In this document: in pieces, positions 142-43,530 of the stretch
Numbering within the stretch: the stretch's first letter is position 1
Layout of the letters: the number at the start of each line of letters is the position of its first letter
Virus record (IMG/VR): IMGVR_UViG_3300037628_000359
Coordinates: 1 to 50,740 of that record
Length of the DNA: 50,740 bases
From: a virus
Strand: one strand, 5' to 3'
Notes under the pieces: generated by a model
What the model was told of the DNA's origin: nothing
The model's database searches: none
The model's input: only the letters and a program-made list of their open reading frames with translations
Translations under genes and position numbers: made by a program

Positions 142-2436
142 ATGCCAACGAATATAGATTATAGTGATCATGCAAAAGTTCTTGTGTTAATTCAAGAGGC
201 GCAGGATAACGAACGAGATCAGCGAGCGCGAGTCGAAGAGGCTCAGTTGTTTATCACAGAAAAGGATGGTCAATGGGATCGATACGCCATTAGCAAAATG
301 GACGGTCGTTTTCGTGGCACGTTTGATATGTGTACCCCTATCGTTGATGGTATTGCCGGTGAAATAACTCAATCAGATTTTAGTATTCGTGTAAGTCCTG
401 CTAATGGAGTAGCAACAAAACAAATAGCTAAAACTTATGATGGGCTTATTCGTAACATTAGAAACGTATCGAATGCTGATACACTATTTAATGACATGGG
501 GCGCACTAATGTTGTTGGTGGGTTTGATGCGTGTGAAGTTGTCCAAGATTTTATAGAGCCTGATTCATTTAACCAAGGCTTATTAATTAAAAAAATTGCC
601 AATGCAGTTCGATCAGTTTGGTGGGACCAAGGTTCTATTGAGCAAGATCGCCATGATGCCGATTGGGGTATTAAGCTAAAAACCATTCAAAAATCTGAAT
701 ATGATGAAAGATGGTCTAAGGGTTCAGGTGTATCTATCGGTGATAACGCTGTAAACCAAACAGTTAAAAACACAACCAATGCTACAGATACCGTTACCAT
801 CGGTAAGCTTTACTATAAAAAACCTTTAAATATTGAAATCGTTCAAATGACGGACGGCTCAGTTTATAAAGATGATGAAAAATTCAAATCTATTCAGGAT
901 GAACTTTCACAGCCGACAGAGGATGCACCAGAAGGCATTAAAATTGAAACTGATGACGATGGTAAAGAGAAGCGCAGAAAGGTTAAGCAATGGAGAGTAT
1001 GGACTCGTCTACTTGATGGCTCGGACTGGCTAGACGTTGAAGAAGAGACAGTTTTTGATTATATACCACTAGTGCCTATTTACGGCAACTTCACCATCAT
1101 CGATGATAAGTATATTTATTTTGGTAAGCTTCAAAACCTATTTGATCAACAGCGTGTATTAAATTATTCAACTAGCCGTGACATTGAGGACGGGGCATTA
1201 GGTCCATCTGAAAAAATAGCGATGACCACCGATCAAATCGGCAATAACGATTATTCAAAAATAAACACTGAACGCGATCCTATCTTTGAATACGATAATG
1301 ACGAAAAATCCAAGTCACCACCATATAAAATGGCAGGGGCGCAACCTAACGCAGCATTGCAAACCACAATATCAAACATGCAACAAATGATGAATTCGTC
1401 ATCTAACACCTTTCAGGCACAACAAGGTAACGCACCATCAACACAGAGTGGTATAGCAGGGATGCAGCAGATAGAACAAGCCAATATAGGCTCTATCAAG
1501 TGGTTTACGCCTTTAGAGGTAATGATATGTCAAATCGGTAGAATTATCGTTAATTCTGCCCCTAGAGTTTATGATGGTACGCGACTAGAGAGAATACTTG
1601 AAGAGGATGGTAATTCAAATTTCGTAGAGTTAAATAAAAAGATATTTGATGATGAAACCAAAAAAAATATTGTTATTAATGATTTATCATTGGGTCAATA
1701 TGACTCTGTTTGTGAATCAGGCCCAGCATTTAATAGCTCACAAAAAGAAGCAGCGAGAGCTATTGAAACTATCATGACAATTAATCCGCAATTAGCAGCG
1801 GAAAATATGGATATATATCTTAAGAACAAAAAAGAGCCGGGCTTTGATTTAATGGCAGAGCGTGAAAGGGAGAAAATATTTAACGCTGGCTTAATCCCTG
1901 AATCACAATGGACTGATGAAGAAAAACAGCAAGTAGCCGATCAGCAAGCAGCAGCAGAAGGTCAGCCACCACAAGAAGATCCTGCACTAAAAGAAGCTAA
2001 TGGTATTGAAATGTCTGGTCAAGCTGATTTAACTAATGCTAATACCAAGCAGCAAGAGGCGCAATTTAACGCTCAAGTTAAAGCGGCTCAGGTCGCGGTA
2101 GACCAAGATAAAGTTGCACTTGAAAGAGAAAAGCTTCAATTTGACGTTCAGAAATTCTTAAAAGGCCAAGATGATAAATTCAATGTTGATGCAGCAACTA
2201 TTCAGTTAAATGTAGAGAAGCAAGATTTAGCACAAAGAAAACAAGAGTTTGATGAGTTTATAGTGGTTAGTAAGCAACAATTTGAACAGCAGCAGCAAGC
2301 GGTCAATGACGCTATCAACAACCTGAAAACTATACAAGACGCTAGTGGTGATACGACTATTATAGGCCCAGGATTAGTTGATAATATGAAAACTCAAAGC
2401 GATATTGTTAGCGATAAGCAAGACGAATCTGATTAA
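142..2436 (+). CDS. Portal protein, P22 gp1-like
   Basis: This 764-residue protein is the dodecameric portal through which DNA enters and leaves the head. Its size and order (terS-terL-portal) match P22 gene 1 (725 aa). The N-terminal half carries the family pattern around QWDRYAISKMDGRFRGTFD and a later VPIYG segment. Residues of roughly 600-740 are a Gln/Ala/Lys-rich coiled coil, as in the long C-terminal barrel helix of P22 portal. The ATG follows an AGGATAAAACA leader, only 10 bp after the terminase stop, so the two genes are cotranscribed. The stop overlaps the convergent HNH gene by 4 bp. Confidence 0.92.
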   Translation: MPTNIDYSDHAKVLVLIQEAQDNERDQRARVEEAQLFITEKDGQWDRYAISKMDGRFRGTFDMCTPIVDGIAGEITQSDFSIRVSPANGVATKQIAKTYDGLIRNIRNVSNADTLFNDMGRTNVVGGFDACEVVQDFIEPDSFNQGLLIKKIANAVRSVWWDQGSIEQDRHDADWGIKLKTIQKSEYDERWSKGSGVSIGDNAVNQTVKNTTNATDTVTIGKLYYKKPLNIEIVQMTDGSVYKDDEKFKSIQDELSQPTEDAPEGIKIETDDDGKEKRRKVKQWRVWTRLLDGSDWLDVEEETVFDYIPLVPIYGNFTIIDDKYIYFGKLQNLFDQQRVLNYSTSRDIEDGALGPSEKIAMTTDQIGNNDYSKINTERDPIFEYDNDEKSKSPPYKMAGAQPNAALQTTISNMQQMMNSSSNTFQAQQGNAPSTQSGIAGMQQIEQANIGSIKWFTPLEVMICQIGRIIVNSAPRVYDGTRLERILEEDGNSNFVELNKKIFDDETKKNIVINDLSLGQYDSVCESGPAFNSSQKEAARAIETIMTINPQLAAENMDIYLKNKKEPGFDLMAEREREKIFNAGLIPESQWTDEEKQQVADQQAAAEGQPPQEDPALKEANGIEMSGQADLTNANTKQQEAQFNAQVKAAQVAVDQDKVALEREKLQFDVQKFLKGQDDKFNVDAATIQLNVEKQDLAQRKQEFDEFIVVSKQQFEQQQQAVNDAINNLKTIQDASGDTTIIGPGLVDNMKTQSDIVSDKQDESD

Positions 2437-4420: not shown

Positions 4421-4658
4421 TATATAAAAACCTCGTCAAAAACATTTCTTTTATCGAATTAACTACGATACATTTAAAAAATCCATCATTATTTGCCGAC
4501 ATTGGACTTCGTAATACTTCATCCATATTAGCGTTATCGCAAGAGTCGTAATATAACCCTGTAAAGTTTGCGTATTCGTATTTATCACCCATCTTTAAAA
4601 CGTGCGTTGCATTTCTTGGTGCTTGCTCGTGAAATTCTGTAAGTGTTTTAAGTTTCAT
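4413..4658 (-). CDS. Hypothetical protein coupled to HTH regulator, copy 1
   Basis: An 81-residue protein with start coupled as ATGA to the stop of the HTH gene (4-bp overlap). The equivalent position in the second cassette is the 66-aa gene at 10079-10279, with the identical 4-bp overlap. Sequence similarity between the two is weak (Lys-rich N-terminus, a C-terminal IKEM/LQEM helix). Not recognised. Confidence 0.75.
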   Translation of the reverse strand: MKLKTLTEFHEQAPRNATHVLKMGDKYEYANFTGLYYDSCDNANMDEVLRSPMSANNDGFFKCIVVNSIKEMFLTRFLYND

Positions 4659-4858
4659 AACTCACCCCATAAAGCAAAGACCGATAACTTACACTTAAAC
4701 ACCTCAAGCAATCTTTCCTGCATATCAGCCCCAGGTTTCTTTGTGCCATTACATAAGCGGCTAACGTGTGCGGCTGTGATTGAAAGCTCTTTAGCTAACC
4801 ATCGTTGATTATTATTCTTTATCGCTAGTCCGACTCTTATAGCCTGTCCTGTATCCAT
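4655..4858 (-). CDS. Small HTH (Cro/CI-type) regulator, copy 1
   Basis: A 67-residue protein that is essentially one helix-turn-helix domain. The recognition segment is WLAKELSITAAHVSRLCNG, followed by KKPGADMQERL, as in XRE/Cro proteins. It is the first gene of the leftward operon. A good sigma70 promoter lies 40-70 bp upstream (4900-4928) and a divergent promoter drives the ter operon. It most likely represses one or both of these promoters. Confidence 0.88.
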   Translation of the reverse strand: MDTGQAIRVGLAIKNNNQRWLAKELSITAAHVSRLCNGTKKPGADMQERLLEVFKCKLSVFALWGEL

Positions 4859-4997: not shown

Positions 4998-5026
4998 TTG
5001 ACACAATCAAACCGTATGTATAGTAT
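4998..5026 (+). promoter_or_regulatory. sigma70 promoter for the ter operon
   Basis: TTGACA and TAGTAT are separated by exactly 17 bp, 22 bp before the 49-aa gene that leads the terD-terB-terC operon. This is one of the best consensus promoters in the window. Confidence 0.8.
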
Positions 5027-5047: not shown

Positions 5048-5197
5048 ATGAAAACTTTGACAATATCACAAGTAATGAAAGCTCCAGGTCTTTTAAAAAA
5101 AGAGTTAGAAAAAGGCCAAGTGAGATTAATCTGGAAAGAACCAAAACCAAATGGGTTAATAGTTTTTTCCGCAATTGTAAAAAAAGAGGAAAGTTAA
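5048..5197 (+). CDS. Hypothetical protein, 49 aa, first gene of ter operon
   Basis: A lysine-rich small protein starting MKTLTISQVMKAPGLLKKEL. GAGAGGAT precedes the ATG. It ends one base before the terD start. Not recognised; its position suggests a regulator or accessory factor of the Ter module. Confidence 0.65.
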   Translation: MKTLTISQVMKAPGLLKKELEKGQVRLIWKEPKPNGLIVFSAIVKKEES

Positions 5198-5198
5198 A

Positions 5199-5765
5199 AT
5201 GTTAGATATTATTGCGAAAGGCGAAACATTCGAATTAAGCGTTAAATCAAAGCAAGAAGGCCCACAGGTATTTTACTTTGGTGCCGGTTGGGATAATCCA
5301 GACGGTCCGGTTGATTTAGATATCGTTTGTGCCGCGTTAGTTGACGGTAAATTATCAAGCAACAGTAACTTTGTTTACTTTGGTAACCGCTTTGCTCCAG
5401 GTATTTCTTTATCAGAAGATAATCAAACCGGCGATGGCGATGGCGATGATGAAGATATTGTTATTGACACTTCAAAAGTAGATTCTACCGTTGATAAAAT
5501 CGTTATCGGTTTAGCTGCTTATGCTGGTGCTGATCTACATAGCGCTCCTAACCCACATTTTCGTGTTTGCGATGGCGATAACGAAAATAGCGATCAGATC
5601 GGCGATGTTGTTGTTACTGGTGGTGCAACCGCTGGCGATACGGTTCTTGTAGCGTTTACATTGATGCGCACATCTTCAGGATGGGTGTTAGAAAACAATG
5701 CTGAGTTCCATAAAAAAGGACAAGGCACCGGCGCGATTCAAGGTTTCGGCTCATTGTTTGAGTAA
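5199..5765 (+). CDS. terD: TerD-family protein
   Basis: A 188-residue member of the TerD/TerE calcium-binding family, which in bacteria belongs to the ter locus (tellurite resistance, phage inhibition, colicin resistance). The calcium-site segments are visible: PVDLDIVCA at about residue 40, and DNQTGDGDGDDE at about 75-86 followed by IVIDTSKV. The usual family length is ~190 residues, so it looks complete. No signal peptide. It is followed by a short hairpin, then terB and terC, making a compact three-gene Ter module unusual in a P22-like phage. Confidence 0.92.
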   Translation: MLDIIAKGETFELSVKSKQEGPQVFYFGAGWDNPDGPVDLDIVCAALVDGKLSSNSNFVYFGNRFAPGISLSEDNQTGDGDGDDEDIVIDTSKVDSTVDKIVIGLAAYAGADLHSAPNPHFRVCDGDNENSDQIGDVVVTGGATAGDTVLVAFTLMRTSSGWVLENNAEFHKKGQGTGAIQGFGSLFE

Positions 5766-5793
5766 CCGCTATCTAGTTTAAAATTACTTTAAT

Positions 5794-5809
5794 GGCGGCT
5801 TAGGTCGCC
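5794..5809 (+). terminator. Weak hairpin between terD and terB
   Basis: GGCG, an 8-nt loop, then CGCC, followed by TTATTTATTTT. The stem is short and the T tract interrupted, so it is more likely an attenuator or a 3' end that lets terD be made in excess over terB/terC than a full terminator. Confidence 0.4.
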
Positions 5810-5831
5810 TTATTTATTTTGGAGAATTAAA

Positions 5832-6269
5832 ATGTGGGATAAATTAAAAAACCTTGCATCAAATGTATTAAGTGAAGGTGAAAAAGTTTTAACGCGAGCT
5901 ATCGATAAAAATAACTTTAAAAGAATTATTTTTGCCGGTTATCTTATAGCTCAAGCTGATGGTGATTTTGACAGCGATGAAAAATCAGCGCTTGCTAAAA
6001 TCGTCAAAAAAGAATTACCCCAATTCGATATTCAAGACATTATCGACGTGATCAATAAATGCGATGAAAAAGTATCGTTTGATAAACGTTTAGGTGTTTC
6101 AGAATTACTTGATTTTATCGGTGGTGCAGATAAAGAAAACGCTGAATTGATAATGCGCATATGCTGCTTTATTGGTGAGGCCGATGGTAAGTTTGATGCT
6201 GATGAAAAATTAGTAGCAAGAGATATTGCCATTCGTCTTAATGTAACACCTTCGAGATACGGGCTATGA
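5832..6269 (+). CDS. terB: TerB-family protein
   Basis: A 145-residue all-helical TerB domain. It has the family's repeated acidic calcium/metal motif twice: ADGDFDSDEKSAL at about residue 43 and ADGKFDADEKLVA at about 117, each after a helix of the form FAGYLIAQ / MRICCFIGE. TerB links TerC at the membrane with cytoplasmic Ter proteins in the bacterial system. TTTTGGAGAATTAAA precedes the ATG. The stop overlaps the terC start by 4 bp, indicating translational coupling. Confidence 0.93.
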   Translation: MWDKLKNLASNVLSEGEKVLTRAIDKNNFKRIIFAGYLIAQADGDFDSDEKSALAKIVKKELPQFDIQDIIDVINKCDEKVSFDKRLGVSELLDFIGGADKENAELIMRICCFIGEADGKFDADEKLVARDIAIRLNVTPSRYGL

Positions 6270-7141
6270 TTGACTCAATAGGATTTCCACCTTTAACGGT
6301 CGGTATATTTCTATTGTGTGTGGCTGGACTTCTAGTTATGGATTTCTGGTCACACAGAAAAGATTCAATTGTATCATTAAAGTCTGCTATATCATGGTCA
6401 TTATTTTATATCTTCTGTTCTTTAGCTTTTGCAGGTTATTTATATTTAGATCATGGTAAAGAAAGTGCTAGCCTATTCTTGACGGGTTATTCATTAGAGA
6501 AGGTATTGGCATTCGATAACCTTTTTGTTTTTTCAATGATATTCGCTTACTTCAAGATACCTGAAGAAAGGCAACATGCTGCTTTATATTGGGGTATAGC
6601 TGGAGCTATAATTTTCAGGATGATATTTGTTGCCATAGGTGTAACATCATTAAATAAAATAGGCCCGATTGCCGAGGTAATTTTTGCTTTATTAATTATA
6701 TTTTCTGTATATTTGATTATTAAAGGCGGTGATGATGATGTTGATTATGATAACGCATGGTACACAAAAGCTATAAGGAAAGTATACCCAGGTGCATCGA
6801 TATTTTTTATAGCGGTATGTGTTATCGAGATAAGCGATATTATGTTCTCTTTTGATAGTGTGCCGGCAATTATAGCGATAACTAAAGATCCATTGCTAAT
6901 ATATAGTTCAATGATATTTGCAATACTAGGATTAAGATCTATGTACTTTATTATATCTTCATTATCTAGATTTTTTGTTTACATGGATCAGGCTGTGATT
7001 TTTGTTCTTTTATTTATTGCAGGAAAGCTTTTATTTGGAACGCTTGGGATGCACGTAGAGCCTAATATTAGTTTAGTGATTATATTGGGAATTCTTACTT
7101 GTGGTGCTGGCGCATCAGTAATTATTGGAGAGAAAAAATGA
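6266..7141 (+). CDS. terC: TerC-family integral membrane protein
   Basis: A 291-residue protein with eight or nine hydrophobic segments. TerC hallmarks are the EKVLAFDNLFVFSMIFAYF segment (residues ~70-90) and IMFSFDSVPAIIAIT (~195-209), with intramembrane acidic residues, then GLRSMYF. TerC proteins are inner-membrane transport-like proteins of the tellurite-resistance and metal-homeostasis superfamily. It overlaps terB (ATGA) upstream and a small membrane protein downstream (ATGA). The length fits the shorter bacterial TerC forms. Confidence 0.93.
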   Translation: MIDSIGFPPLTVGIFLLCVAGLLVMDFWSHRKDSIVSLKSAISWSLFYIFCSLAFAGYLYLDHGKESASLFLTGYSLEKVLAFDNLFVFSMIFAYFKIPEERQHAALYWGIAGAIIFRMIFVAIGVTSLNKIGPIAEVIFALLIIFSVYLIIKGGDDDVDYDNAWYTKAIRKVYPGASIFFIAVCVIEISDIMFSFDSVPAIIAITKDPLLIYSSMIFAILGLRSMYFIISSLSRFFVYMDQAVIFVLLFIAGKLLFGTLGMHVEPNISLVIILGILTCGAGASVIIGEKK

Positions 7142-7389
7142 TTAAGCTTATTAAAAAATACTCAGTAGGGTTGGTAAAGTCCTATTTGATAAAAGTAGCC
7201 GTTATAATTGTTTTGGTTATAATTGCCATTGGAGTCATATTTAAAACGATTAGTTACAGTTCTAGCCGCTATGCTTGCCATGTGCAATGGGTAGAGAGCG
7301 GTATTGAATACAAATACACCTTAAGAGGTGGTTGTTTGTTAAAACGTGGTACTGGTTGGATACCGGCCAAAAACTTTAGAGTTGAATAA
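7138..7389 (+). CDS. Small single-pass membrane protein after terC
   Basis: An 83-residue protein starting MIKLIKKYSVGLVKS, with one strong hydrophobic segment (VAVIIVLVIIAIGVIF) and an exported or cytoplasmic C-terminal part with two cysteines. I choose the ATG at 7138, which overlaps the terC stop as ATGA, rather than an in-frame upstream ATG at 7099 inside terC. Tight coupling to terC suggests a partner, but no family is recognised. Confidence 0.75.
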   Translation: MIKLIKKYSVGLVKSYLIKVAVIIVLVIIAIGVIFKTISYSSSRYACHVQWVESGIEYKYTLRGGCLLKRGTGWIPAKNFRVE

Positions 7390-8818: not shown

Positions 8819-9054
8819 ATGGAATATTACACGCCTGATATGTGCGGCAGTGGACAACAAGGTATTTGCGCTAAATGTAAAAACCACCAACTGTAGAAGG
8901 TCACGATGGGTGCCTTGGTGTACTGCCAAGAGGTGAGGTAATGAACGCTTGTTGTGGTCATGGTAATGATAATCAAGCTTACGTTCAGTTTTGGAGTAAA
9001 CCAAGAATATCAGGACAAGATGCAATTAAATATATAACAGAGAATAAACTATGA
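8819..9054 (+). pseudogene. Cys-rich phage protein split by a -1 frameshift
   Basis: Frame A starts at ATG 8819 (MEYYTPDMCGSGQQGICAKC) and stops at 8894-8896. Frame B continues as KPPTVEGHDGCLGVLPRG, then VMNACCGHG and AYVQFWS, to the TGA at 9052-9054. Together they read as one conserved phage zinc-ribbon-like protein with a CxxC pair followed by GCLG-LP---VMNACCGHG. The break is at a run of five A (8879-8883); one extra A would restore the frame. It may be a sequencing or assembly slip, a real mutation, or programmed -1 slippage at AAAAAC. An alternative is translation of the second half alone from ATG 8941 (37 aa). Confidence 0.7.
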
Positions 9055-9467
9055 CCACAATAGCCTATCACCACGGTGATAAACAAATAGCAATTGATAG
9101 CCGTACGACAAGCGGCGGATTAATAAATACAGACAAAGCGATTAAGGTTTATAAATTTAACAATTACATACTATTTATGTGCGGTAGCCTTTCAGATATT
9201 GAAATTTTTATTGGTGAGTATCCAGATATAAAAACAAATGTTGATTGTGGTGGGTTTTTAATTGAAAACAAAGTGGCTTACGGGGTTTACGAGAAAGACG
9301 GTAAATTATGCAAATTCACGCTAACTTATAACGATGCTGATGGTAGTGGTTACGCATTTGCCCTAGCTGCTATGGACTTCGGTTGTGATGCAAGAGGCGC
9401 GGTTAAATATGCTATGACACGAGATATTTATACAGGCGGTAGAATCAAAGTTATTGACGTTAAATAA
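9051..9467 (+). CDS. Proteasome-like Ntn hydrolase (HslV/20S beta family)
   Basis: A 138-residue protein starting MTTIAYHHGDKQIAIDSRTTSGG. After Met removal a Thr would be the N-terminal nucleophile. The DSR at residues ~16-18 and the Lys in TDKAIK (~29) match the Asp17 and Lys33 positions of proteasome beta subunits. The glycine-rich turn at DGSGYAFALAAMDFGCDAR matches the family's G-SG-YA-gA pattern, where many proteasome-like proteins have glycine. It is shorter than HslV (~175 aa) and has no ATPase partner nearby. The start overlaps the previous stop as ATGA. Likely a phage protease or a self-assembling Ntn protein. Confidence 0.85.
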   Translation: MTTIAYHHGDKQIAIDSRTTSGGLINTDKAIKVYKFNNYILFMCGSLSDIEIFIGEYPDIKTNVDCGGFLIENKVAYGVYEKDGKLCKFTLTYNDADGSGYAFALAAMDFGCDARGAVKYAMTRDIYTGGRIKVIDVK

Positions 9468-10657: not shown

Positions 10658-11545
10658 ATGAGTGAAGACACACAGCTACAAAACGATGCTGCTGAGGCAG
10701 AAGTAAATCTTAATCAAGCAGAAATCGCAGAGCCAGAAAAAGGCACAGGGTTAGCTCCTGAAAAGAGTGAAGCGGAACACAAAGAAAAGCCGCAAGTTGA
10801 TGATGCAGAGGCTGAAGCAGCAGCACAAAAAGCTAAAGCGCAAGAAGGCATTCAGAAGGCTATCAATAAAAGCCATCGAGAAGCGAGAGAAGCCGAGCGT
10901 AAAACCGCAGAGCTACAAACAAAACTTGATGAGATAGAAACGGAAAAACAGGAAAAACTAGCCGCTTCGGTTGCTAATATTCCAGATTTACCAGTTTATC
11001 CTTCAGAGCCTTTTGATGCAAATTATGCTGAGCAAGTAGCTAATTACAATCAAGCAATTATTGATCGTGATGCGAAGATACAAGCTAAAGCAACGTTTGA
11101 TGCAAATCAAAATATTTTAACGCAACAAACACAGTATCAACAACAACAACAGGCACAAGTAAAAGCTAACGAAATGGCAGAATTAAGTAATAGCTTTTTC
11201 GGGAACGCTAGAGATACAGGCGCTACAGACACTGAAATAAATTCAGTGATCAATTTATTAAATAACGCTGGTATGACTGGTGATCTAGGTGCAGCTATCA
11301 TGACTGATAAAACAGACGGTTATTTTATTGCTAAACATTTAGCGGAAAACCTTGTTGAAGTACATGAGTTGATGGCTATTAACCCGATTATGGCAGGAGC
11401 TAAATTAGCAGAAATCAAAGCTAAAGCTAGTGCATTAAAACCGAACACAACGCAAACCCCTAAACCTACGCAGGATATTAAAGGCGCAGGAGCTAAAACG
11501 GATTTGAATAAATATCCAAATAGCGATGGGGCAAAATTTACATAA
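10658..11545 (+). CDS. Scaffolding protein, P22 gp8-like
   Basis: A 295-residue protein (P22 gp8 is 303). It directs coat assembly and leaves the head before packaging is complete. Sequence signs: acidic, low-complexity N-terminus; Ala/Glu/Lys coiled coil (residues ~45-105); Gln-rich stretch (QQTQYQQQQQAQ); and a basic C-terminal end for coat binding. It lies directly upstream of the coat gene. Identification rests mainly on composition and position. Confidence 0.8.
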   Translation: MSEDTQLQNDAAEAEVNLNQAEIAEPEKGTGLAPEKSEAEHKEKPQVDDAEAEAAAQKAKAQEGIQKAINKSHREAREAERKTAELQTKLDEIETEKQEKLAASVANIPDLPVYPSEPFDANYAEQVANYNQAIIDRDAKIQAKATFDANQNILTQQTQYQQQQQAQVKANEMAELSNSFFGNARDTGATDTEINSVINLLNNAGMTGDLGAAIMTDKTDGYFIAKHLAENLVEVHELMAINPIMAGAKLAEIKAKASALKPNTTQTPKPTQDIKGAGAKTDLNKYPNSDGAKFT

Positions 11546-11560
11546 ACAGGAGCCACACTC

Positions 11561-12844
11561 ATGGCTAACAACTTTAACAATTTTACGCTAGAGATAGCTA
11601 AAGCATTCCTTGACGGCTTCGAGTCGGCAAGGGTTCTATCAAAAAACGTCAACACGCAAATGTTAGACGGTAAATTCAATCCTGATACGGGTACAGTCAC
11701 AGACTTTAAACGCCCTACTGACTATTTAACCGTTCGTTCATCTACTGGTGATGTATCTGGTGCTACAGCTTCTGATATCGTTACTGGTCGTGCACATGGT
11801 ACGGTTCAGGACTACTTTACATCGTTTGTCGAGTTTGACGAAGCAGATGAAGCCCTTAAAATGGGTAACCTAAAAGAATTGCTAGCGCCTATGGCTTTGC
11901 GAATGGTTACTGATTTAGAGCTTGATTTCGGTAAGTTTATGATGAGCAACGTAGGTTTATTATCTGGCACACCAGGAACTGCGATCACAACATGGTCCGA
12001 TGTGGCTAATGCTGGTGCGGTAATGAAATCAACCGGTGTCCCTAAAGATGGTGATTGGATTGCAGCGGTCAACAGTTTCACTCAAACCGCATTAGCTGAT
12101 ATTCAGCGCTCATTAGGTTCTGGTGGTTCAGCAGGTGCTTTAATCTCTGACGCTCATAAAAACGCTATTATCAGTGATAACTTTGGGGGTCTTAAAGTAA
12201 TGACAGCTGATACATTAGCTGCATATACCACGGATGCCGAAGCTGATAGGGCGGGTGTAATTGCTGCTGGTGGCCTTAACATTACTTATGTTGGCGCAAA
12301 AGATACTATGACGCAGGATATCGCTGTTAGTGGCTTCGGTGCTGGTGCAACAGTGATTAAAGCTGGTGAAGTGGTACAAATCACTGGTCGTAATCGCCTA
12401 AATCTAGCCACTCGCGAGTTAATGCTTGATGCTTCTGGTTCTGCAATCCTGTTCACAGGTGTTGTTACAACTGAAGTTACGTTGGCCGCTGGCGCTGGTA
12501 CTATCAATATTACTGGACCTGCAATCTTTGAGAGTGCTGCTGGTACAGGTGCTTACAATACGGTGGATACAGCGCCTATTATCGGTGATGTTGTTACCTT
12601 GTTAGGCCCTGCCGCAACGACTATTCAACCTAGTTTGTTCTGGCATAAGAACGCCTTCTCCATCGGTTCCGTACCTATCAAACGCCTTAGCGCTCAAGAT
12701 ACGTTTGCAGAGACTAAAGACGGTATTCAAATGCGTATTACTCAAGGTTCAGATTTCCTTGCGAATACCAACAAAGTCAGAATTGATATTCGACCTGCTT
12801 TTGCCGCACTAAACCCTTTCTGGGGTGGTCACCTTTACGGCTAA
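11561..12844 (+). CDS. Major capsid (coat) protein, P22 gp5-like
   Basis: A 427-residue protein (P22 gp5 is 430). The N-terminus MANNFNNFTLEIAKAFLDGF is followed by an E-loop region (VTDFKRPTDYLTVRS), P-domain helices (LAPMALRMVTDLELDFGKFM) and a Gly/Ala/Thr-rich inserted domain at ~220-345. The C-terminus resembles gp5, with DIRPAFAALNPFWGGH. It forms the procapsid with the scaffold. CAGGAGCC precedes the ATG. Confidence 0.88.
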   Translation: MANNFNNFTLEIAKAFLDGFESARVLSKNVNTQMLDGKFNPDTGTVTDFKRPTDYLTVRSSTGDVSGATASDIVTGRAHGTVQDYFTSFVEFDEADEALKMGNLKELLAPMALRMVTDLELDFGKFMMSNVGLLSGTPGTAITTWSDVANAGAVMKSTGVPKDGDWIAAVNSFTQTALADIQRSLGSGGSAGALISDAHKNAIISDNFGGLKVMTADTLAAYTTDAEADRAGVIAAGGLNITYVGAKDTMTQDIAVSGFGAGATVIKAGEVVQITGRNRLNLATRELMLDASGSAILFTGVVTTEVTLAAGAGTINITGPAIFESAAGTGAYNTVDTAPIIGDVVTLLGPAATTIQPSLFWHKNAFSIGSVPIKRLSAQDTFAETKDGIQMRITQGSDFLANTNKVRIDIRPAFAALNPFWGGHLYG

Positions 12845-12860
12845 TAAGTAGTTTATTTAT

Positions 12861-12885
12861 AAAGGGGTCAGATTCTTGGCCCTTT
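12861..12885 (+). terminator. Hairpin downstream of the coat gene
   Basis: AAAGGG, a 13-nt loop, then CCCTTT, followed by CATTTAAAA. Without a real T tract it is more likely a 3' stabiliser or partial terminator that keeps coat mRNA abundant relative to the tail genes downstream. Confidence 0.45.
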
Positions 12886-12907
12886 CATTTAAAACAAGAG
12901 ATAAATT

Positions 12908-13150
12908 ATGAAATTACTAACTGAATGGGTAAAGCCAAGTGGCGCACGACTAATGTTGAATGACGAAGATGCAACAGTTGAGCAAGCGGAAAAGAATGGC
13001 TGGATACGTTACAGCGAGACAGAAGAAGGACTTGCGGCCGCTAAAGAGTTTTTAGCCGCACAAGTGGCACAAGCTGAGTCTACGGTAAATGCAGCGAAAG
13101 CAAAACAGAAAGGTAAACCCGGACCAAAACCAAAGCAACCGCAGGATTAA
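12908..13150 (+). CDS. Hypothetical head-operon protein, 80 aa
   Basis: Small protein starting MKLLTEWVKPSGARLMLND, with a helical middle (AEKNGWIRYSETEEGLAAAKEFLAA is split by Gly/Trp) and a basic Pro/Lys/Gly C-terminal tail (GKPGPKPKQP). It sits between coat and the gp4-like gene in many similarly arranged phages. Role unknown; a minor head protein is possible. Confidence 0.75.
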   Translation: MKLLTEWVKPSGARLMLNDEDATVEQAEKNGWIRYSETEEGLAAAKEFLAAQVAQAESTVNAAKAKQKGKPGPKPKQPQD

Positions 13151-13153
13151 ATA

Positions 13154-13633
13154 ATGGAAACGGCTGAAAGTTTAATTAACGACTCACTCCAAGAGTTGAT
13201 AGTACAAGCATCTGAGCAGCCTATTCAACCAGTGGACTTTCAGACCGCTAAGCGCTATTTAAACCGCATGATGGCTGCTCTTGACTCTATCGGTATAGCT
13301 TTGGGCTACACGGTTGTAGTTGAGCCAGAAGACCCTATAACCGTTCCCGCTGGCGCTATCGAAGGGATGATTAAAAACTTAGCAGTTAAATTATCAACAC
13401 AATATAGCGTACCTGTTGGACCTCTTTTATTTCAGGAAGCTAAAGACGGCATAACGACAATGCGTAAGATCGCGCGTGTACCTCGTCGAACTGAATTGCC
13501 TTGCACATTACCAGTCGGTCAAGCCAACGAACATTTTGATAGCGACTGGCATTTCTTCCCATGCCCTGAAAGCGAATTATTAACAGAGCAGGGTGGCTCG
13601 ATTCTTTTAGAGGATGAAACAGCTAATGAATAG
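13154..13633 (+). CDS. Tail accessory factor / head-completion protein, P22 gp4-like
   Basis: A 159-residue protein (P22 gp4 is 166). It binds the portal after packaging and builds the neck. Family features are the helical N-terminus with LNRMMAALDSIGIALGY, the AIEGMIKNLAVKLSTQYSVPV helix, and the C-terminal DSDWHFFP motif matching the LNEWHYFPG of gp4. Its position between coat and gp10 fits. Confidence 0.85.
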   Translation: METAESLINDSLQELIVQASEQPIQPVDFQTAKRYLNRMMAALDSIGIALGYTVVVEPEDPITVPAGAIEGMIKNLAVKLSTQYSVPVGPLLFQEAKDGITTMRKIARVPRRTELPCTLPVGQANEHFDSDWHFFPCPESELLTEQGGSILLEDETANE

Positions 13634-15188
13634 CAAAAAAGAGAGTCAGTTTACAGCAGTTCCAGATTTCTCACCCGGTGATTTAGTCACAGGATTAAGA
13701 GGTGCTGGCAATGTAAACTTTCCTTATAGCGCTTTATTCGCTGCTATGAGCGGTTTATCATCACTTAACCAAGTTGGTGATCCTTTAGGCGCTCCAATAC
13801 TTGACCAGCCAGGTGCAGGCGTTAATAATTTCCGTAATATTGAATCAAGCAAAGGTATTATTGCAGCAGTAAGCGCTCAGGATGGCGTTGTTTTAGGTGC
13901 TAACTTTGTACAGAGTACGACAGGCTCGCCAATTATAAAAGACTTAAATGCGCTTCAATATCAGATTAGATCATTGGTTGGTGGTAGTGATATAAATATC
14001 GCGCCATCACCGGACGGAAATTCATTAGTAGTAAGTTTTGTCGGTGGTGGTACATCAACTAAAACAGTTGTTGTATCTCAAGAGTCTGATTTACCAGTTC
14101 CAGTAGCAGGAATAATCACTTTAGCTGATGATACAGATTATCTTTTTGTTCAAGATTTAACTACATCAAATAGATTTGTAAAAGGTGATAACCAAGTCCT
14201 ACGAGCGGCGGATTCTTCAATAGTAAAATTAACCTATACCGGCGTGGATACAATGTTCACCAGTGTAGATAAATCAAATAAAATTACAAAGATCAAGCTA
14301 AATGCTCCAAACGGTAAATTATTCGATATAACCGCAACATCTCCCGGTAAGGTTTTTCAATTTGTTAACGCTACTGTTGAATCATGCGATACCATCGGAA
14401 CTATTGGAAGTATGACAGCAGTCCAACTTTCAGATGTAGCATGGAATGATAATATAACGGATGGACTTCTATTAACAGGTTCGTTTACATTTTTCTTTAT
14501 TGGATTAAATATAGTTACGCAAAACAGCGGTGATTTTCTTGATTTGGGTACAGCAACCTTTGATGGGTTCACTGGTACTAATATTTTTGCAACTTTAGCG
14601 GGTGGAACATCTTTATTAAAAGGTGCTGCATCTAGTGCAAATATAAATAGCGGCGGATTAGGAGTATTAGAAAATACAAGAAAGAATGGCGCTGGTAGCA
14701 TATTATCAGGAATAACGGTAGATGATGCGAGATGGAATTTCGCGATCAATGATGATATACCTGACACTAGACCAGATGGTTTATTGTCGATGCAAGGCAA
14801 TGTAACAAATACAGTTATTTCAGGTATAGGCACTCCTGTATTAGTGGCTGGAGCGTGGGTAGTTGACTCAACTAGTCAAATGATAGGGACTACTGCTGGA
14901 AGATTGACGTATAACGGTGGCAAAAATGCTAAGTTACCGATCACTTCAAGCGTAACTGTTTCCCCAATTTCAGGCGGAACTATATCTGTATCTGCCGAAA
15001 TAGCCATTAACGGCACGGTAGTTTCGGGATCTAAAAGATCCGCATCTACATCAGCAGGAGGTAGTTCTTCAATAACAATTCCGTGGCAATTTGATTTTGC
15101 TACAACTAATTTTGTAGAAGTATTTGTAACCAACGAGGATAGCACTGTTGATCTTTTAGTATCATCCGCTATCCATAGGGTTAACTAA
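13626..15188 (+). CDS. Putative tail appendage/tailspike-like structural protein
   Basis: About 520 residues, Gly/Ser/Thr/Asn-rich and almost all beta by appearance. The first ~75 residues (SQFTAVPDFSPGDLV, then GAGNVNFPYSALFAAMSGL) look like a virion-attachment region. The remainder has repeated short strands and a C-terminal beta-sandwich-like segment. A start at 13626 (MNSKKESQF) overlaps the gp4 stop. An in-frame ATG at 13614 lies directly against AGAGG and is less likely. No enzymatic motif seen. Its place between gp4 and gp10 differs from P22, where nothing intervenes. Confidence 0.65.
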   Translation: MNSKKESQFTAVPDFSPGDLVTGLRGAGNVNFPYSALFAAMSGLSSLNQVGDPLGAPILDQPGAGVNNFRNIESSKGIIAAVSAQDGVVLGANFVQSTTGSPIIKDLNALQYQIRSLVGGSDINIAPSPDGNSLVVSFVGGGTSTKTVVVSQESDLPVPVAGIITLADDTDYLFVQDLTTSNRFVKGDNQVLRAADSSIVKLTYTGVDTMFTSVDKSNKITKIKLNAPNGKLFDITATSPGKVFQFVNATVESCDTIGTIGSMTAVQLSDVAWNDNITDGLLLTGSFTFFFIGLNIVTQNSGDFLDLGTATFDGFTGTNIFATLAGGTSLLKGAASSANINSGGLGVLENTRKNGAGSILSGITVDDARWNFAINDDIPDTRPDGLLSMQGNVTNTVISGIGTPVLVAGAWVVDSTSQMIGTTAGRLTYNGGKNAKLPITSSVTVSPISGGTISVSAEIAINGTVVSGSKRSASTSAGGSSSITIPWQFDFATTNFVEVFVTNEDSTVDLLVSSAIHRVN

Positions 15189-16654
15189 TGCCTAAAGCCA
15201 CTCTTCAACTCGACGGTTTTTATGAATCTCAAACATTAGATTTATCAGAGCAAGAGTGTGTAAATTGGTATCGTTTAATTACTAAAAGCCCCGGTGATAT
15301 TTCGCTTATTTCTTTACGCGGTAGTGTAGGTATTGAGCAAAAATTAACAACGGGTGATCTAACTCAAGTCAATAGAGGATCACACGTTAAGGCTGGTAAA
15401 GCTTATTTTCTGAATGGTGAAACACTTGTAAGAATTGATATTACCTTTGATGAGTTTGGAGAGATGATATTTACCCCTGTAACAATCGGCACTATACCGG
15501 GTGATGAACGCGTATCAATGGCTGATAACGGTGTTCAGTTAATGGTTTTAGTACCTGGAGGTAAGGGTTACATTATCACAACCGGAACGCCTGAAACTCT
15601 TACTGAGATAGTTGACGCAAGTTTTACAGCGAACGGTAACCCTCAACATGTGAGATTTAATAACTCATTTTTTGTAGTCACAACTGATACTAAAAAATTC
15701 ATTCGTTCAGATGCCAACGATGGTACATCATGGAGCGCTTTAAATGTATTTAGCGCTGAATCTGACCCTGATATTATCACAGCCATACATACTAGTAATA
15801 ACCGTGTTTATATCGGTGGCAGCGAGACAATAGAAGAGTTTAATTTTAACGGCACTATTTACCAACGAACTGGTTTTTTTATCGATAAAGGTATTTCCGC
15901 TCCATTTGCCGTTGAGTCAACAAATAAATCTTTCATGTGGATAGGTGCAGGAGAAAATGAAAGCCCTGCAATTTGGCGATTAGTTGGTAATACTCCGGTA
16001 AAAATATCAACAACAGTCATCGATAAAGTCTTACAAGGATTTTCAGCGGAAGAAATAGAGCAAGCATTTAGTTATTCATTTGCTCAAGACGGCGCTTATT
16101 TTATCGGTTTTTCTTTCCCAACTGTAACATTTGAATTTAATACAGTGACAGATAAATGGAACGAGCGCAAAAGTCAGATTATCAATTCTAAAGGCATAAC
16201 AGAGGTTATTAGATGGCGGGTTAACTCAGTGGCTTTCGTTAATCCTATGTTGCTTTGTGGTGACTCTCAAGATGGTAGGGTTGGAAGTATTAGCCCTGAT
16301 ATCTATTCAGAATATAATTGCGAGATAATCAGAACTTGCACGATTCAACCACTAACAAATCAAGGTAACTCTATTTCGATAAGTGAACTAGAGCCAACAT
16401 TTAAAACGGGCGTTGCTACACAGGAAACACCAGACCCGCAAATTAGGTACTCAGCATCTAATAATGGTAAGCACTTAAGAAATGAGACTAGCCGATCAAT
16501 TGGTGGAGTAGGTCAGTATGATCATAGGTCTATTTGGTATAAACAAGGTCGTTTTCCTCGATCAGTTTTCCTTAAATTTACCATGAGCGATAAAGTACAG
16601 TCTGAATTCGTTAAATTAGAGGCGATAATTCAAGGAGGACAAGGTGGCAATTGA
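15188..16654 (+). CDS. Packaged-DNA stabilisation protein, P22 gp10-like
   Basis: A 488-residue protein (P22 gp10 is 472), the hexameric tail hub that plugs the neck. N-terminal SEQECVNWYRLITKSPGDISLISLRGS is split in two conserved parts (CVNWYR; LRGS). Repeated beta-propeller blades follow (VYIGGSETIEEFNFNG; MWIGAGENESPAIWRL). The start overlaps the preceding stop by one base. Confidence 0.88.
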   Translation: MPKATLQLDGFYESQTLDLSEQECVNWYRLITKSPGDISLISLRGSVGIEQKLTTGDLTQVNRGSHVKAGKAYFLNGETLVRIDITFDEFGEMIFTPVTIGTIPGDERVSMADNGVQLMVLVPGGKGYIITTGTPETLTEIVDASFTANGNPQHVRFNNSFFVVTTDTKKFIRSDANDGTSWSALNVFSAESDPDIITAIHTSNNRVYIGGSETIEEFNFNGTIYQRTGFFIDKGISAPFAVESTNKSFMWIGAGENESPAIWRLVGNTPVKISTTVIDKVLQGFSAEEIEQAFSYSFAQDGAYFIGFSFPTVTFEFNTVTDKWNERKSQIINSKGITEVIRWRVNSVAFVNPMLLCGDSQDGRVGSISPDIYSEYNCEIIRTCTIQPLTNQGNSISISELEPTFKTGVATQETPDPQIRYSASNNGKHLRNETSRSIGGVGQYDHRSIWYKQGRFPRSVFLKFTMSDKVQSEFVKLEAIIQGGQGGN

Positions 16655-16937
16655 TAATAGTGAAATTAGTTTTGATAAGCCAATAATCGAAGTTGACGCA
16701 ACTCTAACATTACAAAGTCGTAATTATTTTCTGGCTCTTGATTCTACTATACAAGCACTACGTGCTGAACTTGAATTTCAAACCCTTATTGTTGGCACTG
16801 GCAGCCCTGAAGGTGTAGTTGACGCTTTACCGACAAAAAGATATATGGATGATGCAGGAGTAGCAAATACTATTTGGTATATAAAGCGCGATGCTGATAT
16901 TGCTGGTGATACTACAAAAGGGTGGATATTAACATGA
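16644..16937 (+). CDS. Small virion-operon protein, 97 aa (GTG start)
   Basis: The start is GTG, supported by AGGAGG five bases upstream and by its 11-bp overlap with the gp10-like gene. The protein has a hydrophobic-helical middle (RNYFLALDSTIQALRAELEF) and an acidic Asp-rich end. It occupies the place of the tail needle gene 26 in P22 but is far too short to be one. Role unknown. Confidence 0.75.
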   Translation: MAIDNSEISFDKPIIEVDATLTLQSRNYFLALDSTIQALRAELEFQTLIVGTGSPEGVVDALPTKRYMDDAGVANTIWYIKRDADIAGDTTKGWILT

Positions 16938-17815
16938 GTGGGGCATTAGTAGGAGCAGCGGGTCCAGCAGTTTTTAATTTAGGTGCGCTAAAGGTTATAG
17001 ATGATATTTGTGTTAGCGATAAAAAAGCCAACAGGAAGAAAATCCTTGATTTTGAATTAATAGCCAAGACATTCCCACAAATTGAAATACCTGTTACACA
17101 TCGTATTCATGGTGGTATGTACGCAAGAGAAATAACAATACCCAAAGATACAATTTTAACTGGTCATATTTATAAGTTCGATCACTTTGATGTAATGATT
17201 AGTGGAGATATAACAGTATCGACAGATACCGGTGAAAGAAAAAGATTTACTGGCTATAACTGTTTTAAAGGTATGTCTGGTAAAAAACGTGCTGGATATG
17301 CGCATGAAGATACAATATGGATAACATTCCACCCCTTCACTGGTGATAATGGTAATGACATACAAAAATTTATTACCGCTGAAAGCTTTGAAGAATTAGA
17401 GTTTTTTAATTGTGAAATAAATAAAGCAGATTATAAATCTATGATTTCAGAAATGGATATCAACGAAGATGAAATGGATGAACAGGTAAAAAATACTAAT
17501 GATATGACTGAGTTACCAGATGATTATTCTCATATATATTTAGATAACTCAAGCATAGATAAACAAGGTTTGTTTAGTGAATTAAAAATACTGTCAGGCG
17601 ATATTATTTGCCCGTCGAGAATAAAAGATAAAAGAACCATAGCCGGTAGATATACGAATCATGCTTTACAGCCAAATGCTGAAATGATTTTCGATGGTGA
17701 GAATATAAATTTAGTTTCAAATAGAGATATCGAAGCTAATGAAGAAATAACAGTTAATTATAGGTATGTCTTAAAGACAAGAAACTTAGAAGGCGATTTA
17801 TCATGTCAGGAGTAG
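16934..17815 (+). CDS. Cupin-like protein fused to a C-terminal SET domain
   Basis: A 293-residue protein. Residues ~55-140 form a cupin-like barrel known from phage genomes: GGMYAREITIPKDTILTGHI, a His (FDHF), GDITVST, and KRAGYAHEDTIWITFHP. Residues ~205-277 carry SET lysine-methyltransferase motifs: a G-FS start, NHALQPNAE (NHxxxPN motif) and RDIEANEEITVNY (ExxxxY motif). Both SET signatures are intact, so it is likely to bind S-adenosylmethionine and methylate a lysine. An acidic linker separates the domains. The ATG at 16934 overlaps the previous stop as ATGA. Lying among virion genes, its substrate may be a capsid or ejection protein. Confidence 0.85.
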   Translation: MSGALVGAAGPAVFNLGALKVIDDICVSDKKANRKKILDFELIAKTFPQIEIPVTHRIHGGMYAREITIPKDTILTGHIYKFDHFDVMISGDITVSTDTGERKRFTGYNCFKGMSGKKRAGYAHEDTIWITFHPFTGDNGNDIQKFITAESFEELEFFNCEINKADYKSMISEMDINEDEMDEQVKNTNDMTELPDDYSHIYLDNSSIDKQGLFSELKILSGDIICPSRIKDKRTIAGRYTNHALQPNAEMIFDGENINLVSNRDIEANEEITVNYRYVLKTRNLEGDLSCQE

Positions 17816-22826: not shown

Positions 22827-23438
22827 TTAAAAATACTCCTTTGATAGCCTGATTAGTGCGCTCTTTAGTGGTTCAATCTGCTTTAAAGCTATTTCTAATA
22901 TAGCTTTTGATTTAAACCTTTTATATACACTATGAGCTTCATCTAAAGTTTTATAATACCCCAAGCACTTGCGGTTTCCTAATACACTGCATTGTGCTAT
23001 AAACCTTTTATCTCTTTCGCTAAAGCAGATCCCCATAGGTAGATCTCCTCTTTTTGAGTCATTCGTTCCGAGAAGTCTATTTATTTTAGGGTCAACAAAT
23101 AGACATGTAGATGGACTGTATTCTTTATTCCCTTGAAATAAAATATCTTTATCAAGGTCCTTCTTTTGCCAGTCTTGCTTTTCCATCCATGCTTTAAATA
23201 CAGAAAACGTAAGCCACTCATCGTACACTGTGCAGTCTTTGTATGTTGGATTCTTTGCGTGAAACACGGTAGAATAGCATCTGTTGAGCATGCTTGACCA
23301 TTTCCTGTAGTACGGACACCTTTGATACTTACCATTTATTTTTGGGTTTACCCTATAAAGAGCGTCATTAATTCCTACACCTAAATGAAGTTTTCTTTGT
23401 GCTAAAGAGTTTTTGTTTGCTGAAATTTCTATAAACAT
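22827..23438 (-). CDS. HNH/AP2-like homing endonuclease-type protein
   Basis: A 203-residue protein with the pattern YRKWSSMLNRCYS, then P-YKDCTVYDEW--F--F--WM, as in phage homing-endonuclease-like proteins. An AP2-like C-terminal domain follows (GICFSERDKRFIAQCSVLG, LGYYKTLDEAH). It lies at the boundary between the ejection genes and the tail operon and points against both. Confidence 0.7.
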   Translation of the reverse strand: MFIEISANKNSLAQRKLHLGVGINDALYRVNPKINGKYQRCPYYRKWSSMLNRCYSTVFHAKNPTYKDCTVYDEWLTFSVFKAWMEKQDWQKKDLDKDILFQGNKEYSPSTCLFVDPKINRLLGTNDSKRGDLPMGICFSERDKRFIAQCSVLGNRKCLGYYKTLDEAHSVYKRFKSKAILEIALKQIEPLKSALIRLSKEYF

Positions 23439-24801: not shown

Positions 24802-25320
24802 CTAAAACGCATACTCAACAAACAAGCCGACACCATACGTTTTAACCGTAGCTGCTGGCTTATCTTTTTCATAATACCGAGTAGCTTTTAACGATACAGA
24901 CCATTGATTATCTAAATTGTATTTAACACCTACTGTCGGGCCTAAATCAAAATCATGGTCAAGTCCTGAATAGTTACTACCAGTTAACCAGCCTTTGTAT
25001 TCATAATACCCAACACCCCAAAACGCAGACCAATCATTGACATCATATTTATACAGTATTTCCAATTCAAGAACTTTATCAGTTCTAACCGCCCACGCAC
25101 TACCAAAGCTATCTTTAGCAGAGTTACCTATACCGTAAGCCGCCCTAACGCCAAATCCTGCATCATTAAACGCAGATAATGATAGAGAGTGTATCTGTGT
25201 ATCAAAACGGGCTATATGGCCCCATGTATGTCTCACGTTTTGATAGCCGTAGCCGACTGAGTATTTAGTTGCTAACGCATGACTACTTAATAACATTAGC
25301 GGTATAATTAAATATTTCAT
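24802..25320 (-). CDS. Outer-membrane beta-barrel protein with signal peptide
   Basis: A 172-residue protein. MKYLIIPLMLLSSHALA is a classical Sec signal peptide ending in an A-x-A site. About eight alternating amphipathic strands with aromatic girdles follow (YSVGYGYQNV, AFWGVGYYEY, PTVGVKYNL, WSVSLKATRYY). The last strand ends GLFVEYAF, with the terminal Phe needed by the Bam machinery. Size fits eight-stranded Ail/Lom/OmpX-type barrels. Phage-encoded barrels of this kind alter the host surface. It is the last gene of the leftward operon and convergent with the tail operon. Confidence 0.85.
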   Translation of the reverse strand: MKYLIIPLMLLSSHALATKYSVGYGYQNVRHTWGHIARFDTQIHSLSLSAFNDAGFGVRAAYGIGNSAKDSFGSAWAVRTDKVLELEILYKYDVNDWSAFWGVGYYEYKGWLTGSNYSGLDHDFDLGPTVGVKYNLDNQWSVSLKATRYYEKDKPAATVKTYGVGLFVEYAF

Positions 25321-25822: not shown

Positions 25823-26314
25823 TTAACTCCCGTGATTTTCATGAAAATTATATTTATTTATAGCTTTAGTCCTAGCCTTTGCCGCATCATCTATGTTGTG
25901 AAAGCAACCTAGGCTTTTCTTTTTTCCATCAACCATTATTTCAGCGGACCACTTACCTATCTGTTTATGCCACCAAACACCGGTTACACCACTGGTATTA
26001 TCTGATCTTTTTGAGATGTTTTTATTGTTTGTAGCCTTATCAACAACTCTTAAATTAACAATCCTGTTATCTGTTCTTATATGGTTTATGTGATCGATAT
26101 CACCATTGGGGAATCCACCATTTACATAAAGCCAAACAAGCCTGTGTTGCGTGTACATCTTATAGTTAATTCTTAACTGATAGTACCCGTCTTTATTTTT
26201 ACTAACTGGAATACTGCCTTTTTGAGCGCTACCGCAAGTGGTAATTAGTCGAGTAAACATTCCAGTATCAAAATCATAAGAAACAATCCCTTTAAGTTCG
26301 TCTTGAGTAATCAT
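25823..26314 (-). CDS. HNH homing-type endonuclease with AP2 domain, second copy
   Basis: A 163-residue protein. HNH core: HRLVWLYVNGGFPNGDIDHI, DNRIVNLRVV. AP2 part: SGVTGVWWHKQIGKWSAEI, LGCFHN. It is inserted 2 bp upstream of the RuvC-like gene and separated from the Ref-like gene by 57 bp. Same architecture as 2433-2912. Confidence 0.9.
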   Translation of the reverse strand: MITQDELKGIVSYDFDTGMFTRLITTCGSAQKGSIPVSKNKDGYYQLRINYKMYTQHRLVWLYVNGGFPNGDIDHINHIRTDNRIVNLRVVDKATNNKNISKRSDNTSGVTGVWWHKQIGKWSAEIMVDGKKKSLGCFHNIDDAAKARTKAINKYNFHENHGS

Positions 26315-35507: not shown

Positions 35508-35584
35508 CAGGGTGTAGGGCAGTCTGGTAGCCTGTTTGACTTGGAATCAAAATGTCGGAGGTTCGAATCCTCCCACCTTGACCA
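35508..35584 (+). tRNA. tRNA-Pro (TGG)
   Basis: 77 nt including encoded CCA. Acceptor CAGGGTG pairs with CACCTTG (one G-T). D-arm GGGC/GCCT. Anticodon stem TTTGA/TCAAA with loop CTTGGAA (anticodon TGG). T-arm GGAGG-TTCGAAT-CCTCC. All four stems close. Confidence 0.95.
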
Positions 35585-35593
35585 CTTTATTAT

Positions 35594-35670
35594 GCGTCCT
35601 TGGCCCAATTGGCAGAGGCATAAGACTTAAAATCTTAGAGTTCTGGGTTCGACTCCCAGAGGACGCACCA
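35594..35670 (+). tRNA. tRNA with Leu anticodon TAA, short variable loop
   Basis: 77 nt with CCA. Acceptor GCGTCCT/AGGACGC; anticodon stem TAAGA/TCTTA, loop CTTAAAA (TAA); variable loop GAGTT; T-arm CTGGG-TTCGACT-CCCAG. Bacterial tRNA-Leu normally has a long class II variable arm; this one is class I shaped. A73 fits Leu. Confidence 0.9.
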
Positions 35671-35674
35671 TAAT

Positions 35675-35751
35675 ACCCCTTTAGCCCAATTGGTAGAGGC
35701 GCTAGATTTAGAATCTAGATGTTCACAGTTCGACTCTGTGAGGGGGTACCA
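35675..35751 (+). tRNA. tRNA with Leu anticodon TAG, short variable loop
   Basis: 77 nt with CCA. Acceptor ACCCCTT/AGGGGGT (one wobble pair); anticodon stem CTAGA/TCTAG, loop TTTAGAA (TAG, reads CUA); variable loop ATGTT; T-arm CACAG-TTCGACT-CTGTG. Class I shape again, 4 bp after the previous tRNA and sharing its D-arm. Confidence 0.9.
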
Positions 35752-37887: not shown

Positions 37888-37905
37888 TCGACACAACCAC
37901 CCCAC

Positions 37906-37927
37906 AAGCCCGTCACTAGATGGGCTT
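37906..37927 (+). repeat. Intergenic hairpin repeat, copy 1
   Basis: AAGCCCGTC-ACTA-GATGGGCTT (9-bp stem with one G-T pair) followed by TAAGGGTGAAG. Other copies are at 38612-38633 and 43481-43502. No T tract, so not a simple terminator. Confidence 0.8.
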
Positions 37928-37949
37928 TAAGGGTGAAGCCAAAGTATTT

Positions 37950-38592: not shown

Positions 38593-38611
38593 TAACTAAT
38601 TAACCAACCAT

Positions 38612-38633
38612 AAGCCCGTCACTAGATGGGCTT
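38612..38633 (+). repeat. Intergenic hairpin repeat, copy 2
   Basis: Identical 22 bp to copy 1 (AAGCCCGTC-ACTA-GATGGGCTT), followed by TAAGGGTAGA. It lies between the 153-aa gene and the next Cys-rich gene. Confidence 0.8.
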
Positions 38634-38665
38634 TAAGGGTAGATAGATAAACAAGCGAGAACATC

Positions 38666-43472: not shown

Positions 43473-43480
43473 CCACCCAC

Positions 43481-43502
43481 AAGCCCGTCATGAGATGGGT
43501 TT
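43481..43502 (+). repeat. Intergenic hairpin repeat, copy 3 (compensated)
   Basis: AAGCCCGTC-ATGA-GATGGGTTT followed by TAAGGGTAGA. It differs from the other copies in the loop and in one stem base, where a G-C pair becomes G-T, so pairing is kept. Confidence 0.75.
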
Positions 43503-43530
43503 TAAGGGTAGAAGCAACAGGAGAGTAACC

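Follow-up and report, generated by a model that had tools for sequence, protein, structure and literature searches.

Results

Gene content and organization of the ter locus

The locus is a conserved unit made up of a promoter, a 49-aa leader ORF, TerD, a hairpin, TerB, TerC, and an 83-aa single-pass protein. It lies in a phage genome held as one whole IMG/VR virus record (IMGVR_UViG_3300037628_000359, 50,740 bp), which is referred to below as the window; the features discussed are collected in Table 1. A first-pass annotation of this DNA had proposed a TerD, TerB, and TerC trio, and all three proteins score above the curated Pfam cut-offs; the TerC and TerB profile matches, on which that proposal had been made to depend, are strong. 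TerC also matches TIGR03718 (257 bits, cut-off 246), whereas comparison of a TerC model with the PDB gave no useful match.

Table 1. Positions of the features described in the text (window coordinates unless a record is named)
Feature	Location	Strand	Evidence or remark
P22-like portal	142–2436	+	PF16510, 9.7e-102; left border of cargo locus
Cro/CI-type HTH protein	4655–4858	-	HTH_3, 4.6e-05; divergent from ter operon
Sigma-70-type promoter, TTGACA-17-TAGTAT	4998–5026	+	TTGACAC and TA[GC]TAT kept upstream of leader ORF in six phages
49-aa leader ORF	5048–5197	+	55–84% identical in 5 other phages; start equidistant from promoter
TerD	5199–5765	+	PF02342, 7.9e-20, 71.5 bits (cut-off 25.3); PDB TerD 3ibz/2kxt
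GC-rich hairpin with T-rich tail	5794–5809	+	between TerD and TerB
TerB	5832–6269	+	PF05099, 2.7e-12, 47.5 bits (cut-off 24.4); PDB TerB 2jxu, 1.5e-12
TerC integral membrane protein, 291 aa	6266–7141	+	PF03741, 1.3e-40, 139.5 bits (cut-off 27.8)
83-aa protein	7138–7389	+	one predicted membrane helix; two conserved cysteines; ATGA overlap with TerC
SpoU-type RNA methyltransferase, 152 aa	8062–8520	+	PF00588, 1.6e-16; cargo locus, outside Ter unit
Scaffold	10658–11545	+	phrog_8865, 2.2e-20; right border of cargo locus
TerD–TerB–TerC locus L002/L017	UViG 3300023222_000094		
TerD–TerB–TerC locus L003	UViG 3300022690_000347		12-kb fragment
TerD–TerB–TerC locus L018	UViG 3300023223_000319		
TerD–TerB–TerC locus L019	UViG 3300023222_000040		
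TerD–TerC only	L004/L020		

The sequence motifs named in the annotation are present, namely the calcium motif DNQTGDGDGDDE of TerD, ADGDFDSDEK and ADGKFDADEK in TerB, and FDNLF and FDSVP in TerC. When aligned with plasmid TerD, TerE, and TerZ, the phage TerD retains an intact calcium motif (GWD...DLD...DNxTGxGDGDDE) and is predicted to have the Ca2+-binding fold and to bind the ion. In TerC, the residues E78, D84, N85, E188, D191, and D197 of the intramembrane acidic motifs (E...FDN; E..D..F..DS.P) are invariant in 40 sequences, and the acidic residues are common to the window TerC, Escherichia coli Alx, and plasmid TerC in the alignment. All three genes are under purifying selection (dN 0.10–0.17 versus dS >1.3, window compared with L003).

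ATGA overlaps, as previously claimed, join TerB to TerC (6266–6269) and TerC to the 83-aa ORF (7138–7141), and the TerB–TerC overlap recurs in all five full TerD–TerB–TerC (D-B-C) operons. TerD and TerB are uncoupled, with 66 nt and the hairpin between them. A GC-rich hairpin occupies this position in each of the five D-B-C loci, with shuffle z-scores of -1.1 to -3.5 that are individually modest, and in the window locus it is followed by the T-rich tail; it is possibly a partial terminator or attenuator.

The near-consensus promoter reported earlier requires some qualification. As a lone match it is no better than chance, since the scan returned 39 promoter-like sites against 38.1 expected, but in six phages TTGACAC and the TA[GC]TAT box are conserved ~20 nt ahead of the same leader ORF, in surroundings that have diverged. 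Among other phages, the exact 29-base promoter string occurs only in the L017 contig. The leader itself, which went unmentioned in the annotation, is the first ORF of the 5048–7389 interval and is conserved with a low dN/dS. It has no Pfam, sequence-profile, or PDB sequence match. Its AF2 model (pLDDT 90) has the order b-a-a-b-b, and Foldseek repeatedly matched it to YefM-type antitoxins, none of the matches being significant (E 0.5–0.8, TM ~0.6); as a fold lead, this makes a Phd/YefM-like DNA-binding protein possible, one that would autoregulate the operon. Judged from its sequence, the divergent Cro/CI-type HTH protein is another possible regulator. Control by a Mn riboswitch was dropped from consideration because no yybP-ykoY element was found in the window.

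Homologues of the 83-aa protein follow TerC in L002, L003, and L018 and follow TerB in L275, and in the scan of viral contigs its close relatives occur only at ter loci. The ORF shares 30–69% identity with these relatives. Both it and the leader ORF are real genes, given their conservation in relatives with dN well below dS. The protein has one hydrophobic stretch behind a lysine-rich start, and its two cysteines are invariant in all five homologues; its C-terminus would be periplasmic. Of the three new single-pass proteins previously assigned to the module, it is the only one that recurs, the two later ORFs not being found in the conserved unit.

Multiple TerD paralogues, TerA, TerF (vWA), TelA, and a PRTase arm were not found among the 69 other ORFs, nor was TelA found elsewhere in the window phage genome. 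The locus is thus distinct from a complete terZABCDEF operon, whose other members are absent and whose B-C-D-E order is replaced by D-B-C; it is instead an abbreviated phage Ter operon, with TerC accompanied by TerB and TerD in a phage genome.

The phage genome and its cargo locus

A 127-bp direct repeat is found at both ends of the genome and indicates a complete record. The description of the phage as P22-like is borne out by its portal together with a P22-type coat, scaffold, gp10-like stabiliser, and tail accessory factor. The closest portal is that of Pseudoalteromonas phage H6/1 (37%), and among 50,697 phage records no near DNA relative was found for the first 20 kb. The gap between portal and scaffold is 8.2 kb in the window phage, far longer than in phage H6/1 (~850 bp) or Vibrio phage 234P9 (~115 bp), and the ter genes therefore occupy a cargo locus. 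No tyrosine integrase was found in the genome, and so a temperate moron expressed from a prophage, with a long lysogenic benefit, is not supported.

Other genes were observed in the cargo locus and beyond it. The SpoU-type methyltransferase has a 65% identical copy in the L018 cargo. An HslV/proteasome-like peptidase-family ORF (9051–9467; weak Proteasome match, phrog_1040) has a 43% homologue ~1.5 kb upstream of the Ter leader ORF in L017. Three HNH-endonuclease-type ORFs, likely homing elements, lie at 2436–2912, where the cargo locus meets the portal, and at 22830–23438 and 25826–26314 (minus strand), the latter two being assigned from sequence. A single SET-domain protein (PF00856, 2.6e-8), odd in a P22-like phage, is probably the ORF at 16922–17815 between structural genes, to judge from a sequence ending ...NHALQPNAEM...EITVNYRY. 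An outer-membrane beta-barrel-like protein (PF13505, 8.6e-7), probably the minus-strand ORF at 24802–25320, an assignment made from sequence, could itself alter the receptor surface. Three consecutive tRNA genes, Pro(tgg), Leu(taa), and Leu(tag), span 35508–35751, and three near-identical 33-nt repeats with a hairpin-like core (CCACAAGCCCGTCACTAGATGGGCTTTAAGGGT) lie between early genes at 37902–37934, 38608–38640, and 43477–43509.

The operon in other phages

Viral contigs were scanned with TerC, TerD, TerB, and the 83-aa protein as queries, and the D-B-C operon was found in four of them, giving five loci with the window. One of these, L018, belongs to a P22-like relative of the window phage (portal 54%, scaffold 38%) and carries the ter island at the same site, so that the trio sought between portal and scaffold is present in a second phage. 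L002 and L019 have other packaging genes with no match to the window portal, and no such match was found in the L003 fragment. Yet the window TerC is 77% identical to those of L002 and L003 and only 59% identical to that of L018. The Ter operon and the head genes consequently differ in history, direct evidence that the operon has passed from phage to phage, and the module is both real and mobile. At each end of contig 3300023222_000094 there is a terB copy (L002 64–498 and L017 10627–11061) with a terC start; the two copies are not identical, and they reflect a tandem duplication or else closure through mixed strains.

Three more contigs, L274, L275, and L276, came from a scan with the leader, and the last two are alike in the region read. 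These represent two further phage lineages in which TerB and a small membrane ORF come after the same promoter and leader; the membrane ORF of L275 is homologous to the 83-aa protein (46% to the L018 copy). Whole-record profile searches of the three found TerB and no TerC or TerD above cut-off, in records that may be fragments. Promoter, leader, TerB, and membrane peptide are the shared denominator, and leader, TerB, and peptide look like the core. Because two lineages keep only the leader, TerB, and the small membrane protein, TerC does not appear essential to the job of that core.

Phylogeny of TerC and cellular relatives

A TerC tree of 47 sequences was constructed with IQ-TREE. The phage proteins group with ter-operon TerC, including that of IncHI2 plasmids, and apart from the Alx branch (support 100/100). 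The clade holding the window TerC (window, L002, L003, L019, L018, and L004) is phage-only, with support 100/99. From the well-supported branches, TerC must have switched between phage and cellular lineages two or more times. Among the bacterial ter loci found, most are ordered B-C-D-E. A GTDB scan with the phage TerD gave no cellular relative at that sensitivity, and the sole match in one with TerC was L026, a Methylococcales MAG contig of 11 kb carrying a frameshifted D-B-C, a small membrane ORF, and chromosomal-looking flanks. This damaged locus is the only cellular one found with D-B-C, and the scans thus yielded no close cellular source of the operon.

Discussion

The operon is best read, at about even confidence, as a mobile and self-expressed phage moron encoding a reduced Ter membrane complex, which would buffer the infected cell against stress at the envelope and from divalent metals. 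The host-type promoter would drive TerD together with the leader as putative autoregulator, and the hairpin behind TerD would probably make this soluble protein more abundant than the downstream membrane products, with coupled translation of TerB, TerC, and the 83-aa protein. TerD, with its Ca2+-binding fold, and TerB may assemble on the inner face of TerC, a putative exporter or handler of Mn/Zn-type divalent ions, while the 83-aa protein would extend into the periplasm. Such a complex could keep the cell intact until the phage has finished, and through the same effect on the envelope competing phages could also enter or grow less well. Counted in favor of this stress-buffering role are the families and motifs, the five-phage operon, the six-phage promoter, the five hairpins, the dN/dS values, a TerC on the ter branch, and a cargo locus nearly empty in cultured relatives; counted against it are the riboswitch and integrase searches, which found neither, and the TerC-less lineages.

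In published work, Klebsiella pneumoniae requires TerC to tolerate polymyxin B, ofloxacin, and cetylpyridinium (PMC9933665), and loss of terC lowers Zn, Mn, and Te tolerance (PMC12054061). TerC lowers cell Mn in Vibrio parahaemolyticus (PMC13274385), and the TerC proteins of Bacillus subtilis metalate exported Mn enzymes (PMC10550928). In a different K. pneumoniae strain, however, metal resistance did not depend on TerC (PMC9933665), which counts against the metal part. As PMC12054061 and PMC9933665 disagree on metals, the envelope-stress part is held more firmly.

Exclusion or stress tolerance is the published reading of phage Ter genes (PMC7824862), and it agrees with bacterial ter genetics (PMC12054061, PMC9933665). 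The main rival to stress buffering is superinfection exclusion, in which the membrane complex alters the envelope and thereby keeps later phages from entering or growing, and competition with phages would be the selected function. Exclusion has been suggested for the Ter genes of jumbo phages and certain other phages (PMC7824862); R478 no longer inhibits phage once terC, terD, or terZ carries an insertion, and plaques are larger on K. pneumoniae lacking terC (PMC12054061). The operon's own promoter and its passage between phages also fit, but in bacteria the genes affect phage only partially (plaque size, with few changes in EOP) and no integrase was found that would give a long-lived carrier state; exclusion as the selected function is a possibility we would advance only tentatively. 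We think it improbable that the module serves counter-defence, shielding the infected cell from membrane-damaging abortive-infection effectors of the host much as the ter cluster confers resistance to pore-forming colicins, according to work cited in PMC6392093. The L018 cargo locus also has RtcB, Prs-like, NAMPT-like, and SpoU genes, and Prs/NAMPT lie near TerC in 7 phage loci examined; those loci, however, represent few lineages, the window phage has no RtcB, Prs-like, or NAMPT-like enzyme, and no PADLOC match was obtained, which also disposes of a known defense system. The Ter–NAMPT association is seen from the TerC side and not from the NAMPT side, where ter genes occur at 1 of 80 viral loci (L018 itself), and is a lead only.

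The L018 genes in question lie after the Ter operon at 12612–16946, the Prs-like one being of the ribose-phosphate pyrophosphokinase/Adps-like type and the NAMPT-like one perhaps Namat-like. The Prs and NAMPT pair is a candidate for the NARP1 NAD+ reconstitution pathway (PMC12774641).

A tellurite resistance gene kept for the benefit of the host would match the family names, and a minimal terBCDE does give tellurite resistance in E. coli (PMC8123226). Yet the other members of the full operon are absent from the window phage, TerB-only versions exist, and tellurium is very rare in nature, making this reading highly unlikely and tellurite an unlikely natural substrate. Nothing beyond the cellular names of the families favors an artefact or passenger, that is, a bacterial segment joined by misassembly, which the first-pass annotation had named as a refuting outcome, or a decaying hitchhiker. 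The terminal repeat of a complete genome, the operon in five contigs including four other viral ones, its place at the same site in L018, the phage-only clade, and purifying selection have already refuted it.

A broader and more speculative view, which we find doubtful, is that the loci belong to a phage-specific, horizontally traded class of Ter cassette with an autoregulated promoter–leader unit. Its irreducible core would be TerB and a small membrane peptide facing the periplasm, with TerD and TerC as additions in some phages; the cassette would then be an envelope-level device for exclusion or counter-defence and not a gene for metal resistance. For decades it has been unclear what ter genes do in nature, tellurite being too rare to account for them. 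A compact version under purifying selection in small phages offers a minimal system of ~2.3 kb, or 0.8 kb in the TerB-plus-peptide form, for telling phage inhibition apart from metal handling and from envelope tolerance by simple expression tests.

Comparison with known Ter systems

The IncHI2 plasmid operon terZABCDEF (L109; R478 type) shares with the window phage TerB, TerC (41% identity), and the TerD family, with the same calcium and acidic motifs. It runs Z-A-B-C-D-E-F and has a divergent phosphoribosyltransferase/ATP-grasp arm, whereas the phage has D-B-C only, together with the 49-aa leader and the 83-aa membrane protein, and the phage TerC is shorter because it lacks a loop insertion of ~45 residues. 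Alx and other TerC-type Mn exporters match TIGR03718 and have the same conserved acidic residues as the window TerC, but they form a separate branch, and the window is without their yybP-ykoY riboswitch. Abbreviated phage operons in jumbo phages (PMC7824862), Brevundimonas phage Bambus, Cronobacter phage GAP52, and phi92 likewise combine a phage-borne TerC with TerD and/or TerB, although they have TelA, TerF-like, TerZ, PRTase, or Prs/NAMPT partners, larger genomes, and TerC of other clades. TerB or TerC has also been reported in Paracoccus and Pseudomonas syringae phages (PMC6536676, PMC11256456).

The novelty implied for the trio did not survive this comparison. TerC is present in 174 of 50,697 phage records, and the cultured, non-jumbo Vibrio phage BUCT194 (Schitoviridae, 73 kb) already has the order TerD–TerB–TerC. 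It differs from the window phage in having two TerD-like genes and a second TerB after TerC (D-B-C-B), in showing no leader ORF or 83-aa homologue, and in a TerC that adjoins plasmid TerC in the tree. Modules of this kind are therefore already known, and the novelty lies in the compact D-B-C layout with its conserved leader, promoter, hairpin, and membrane peptide, along with the TerB-only sister form.
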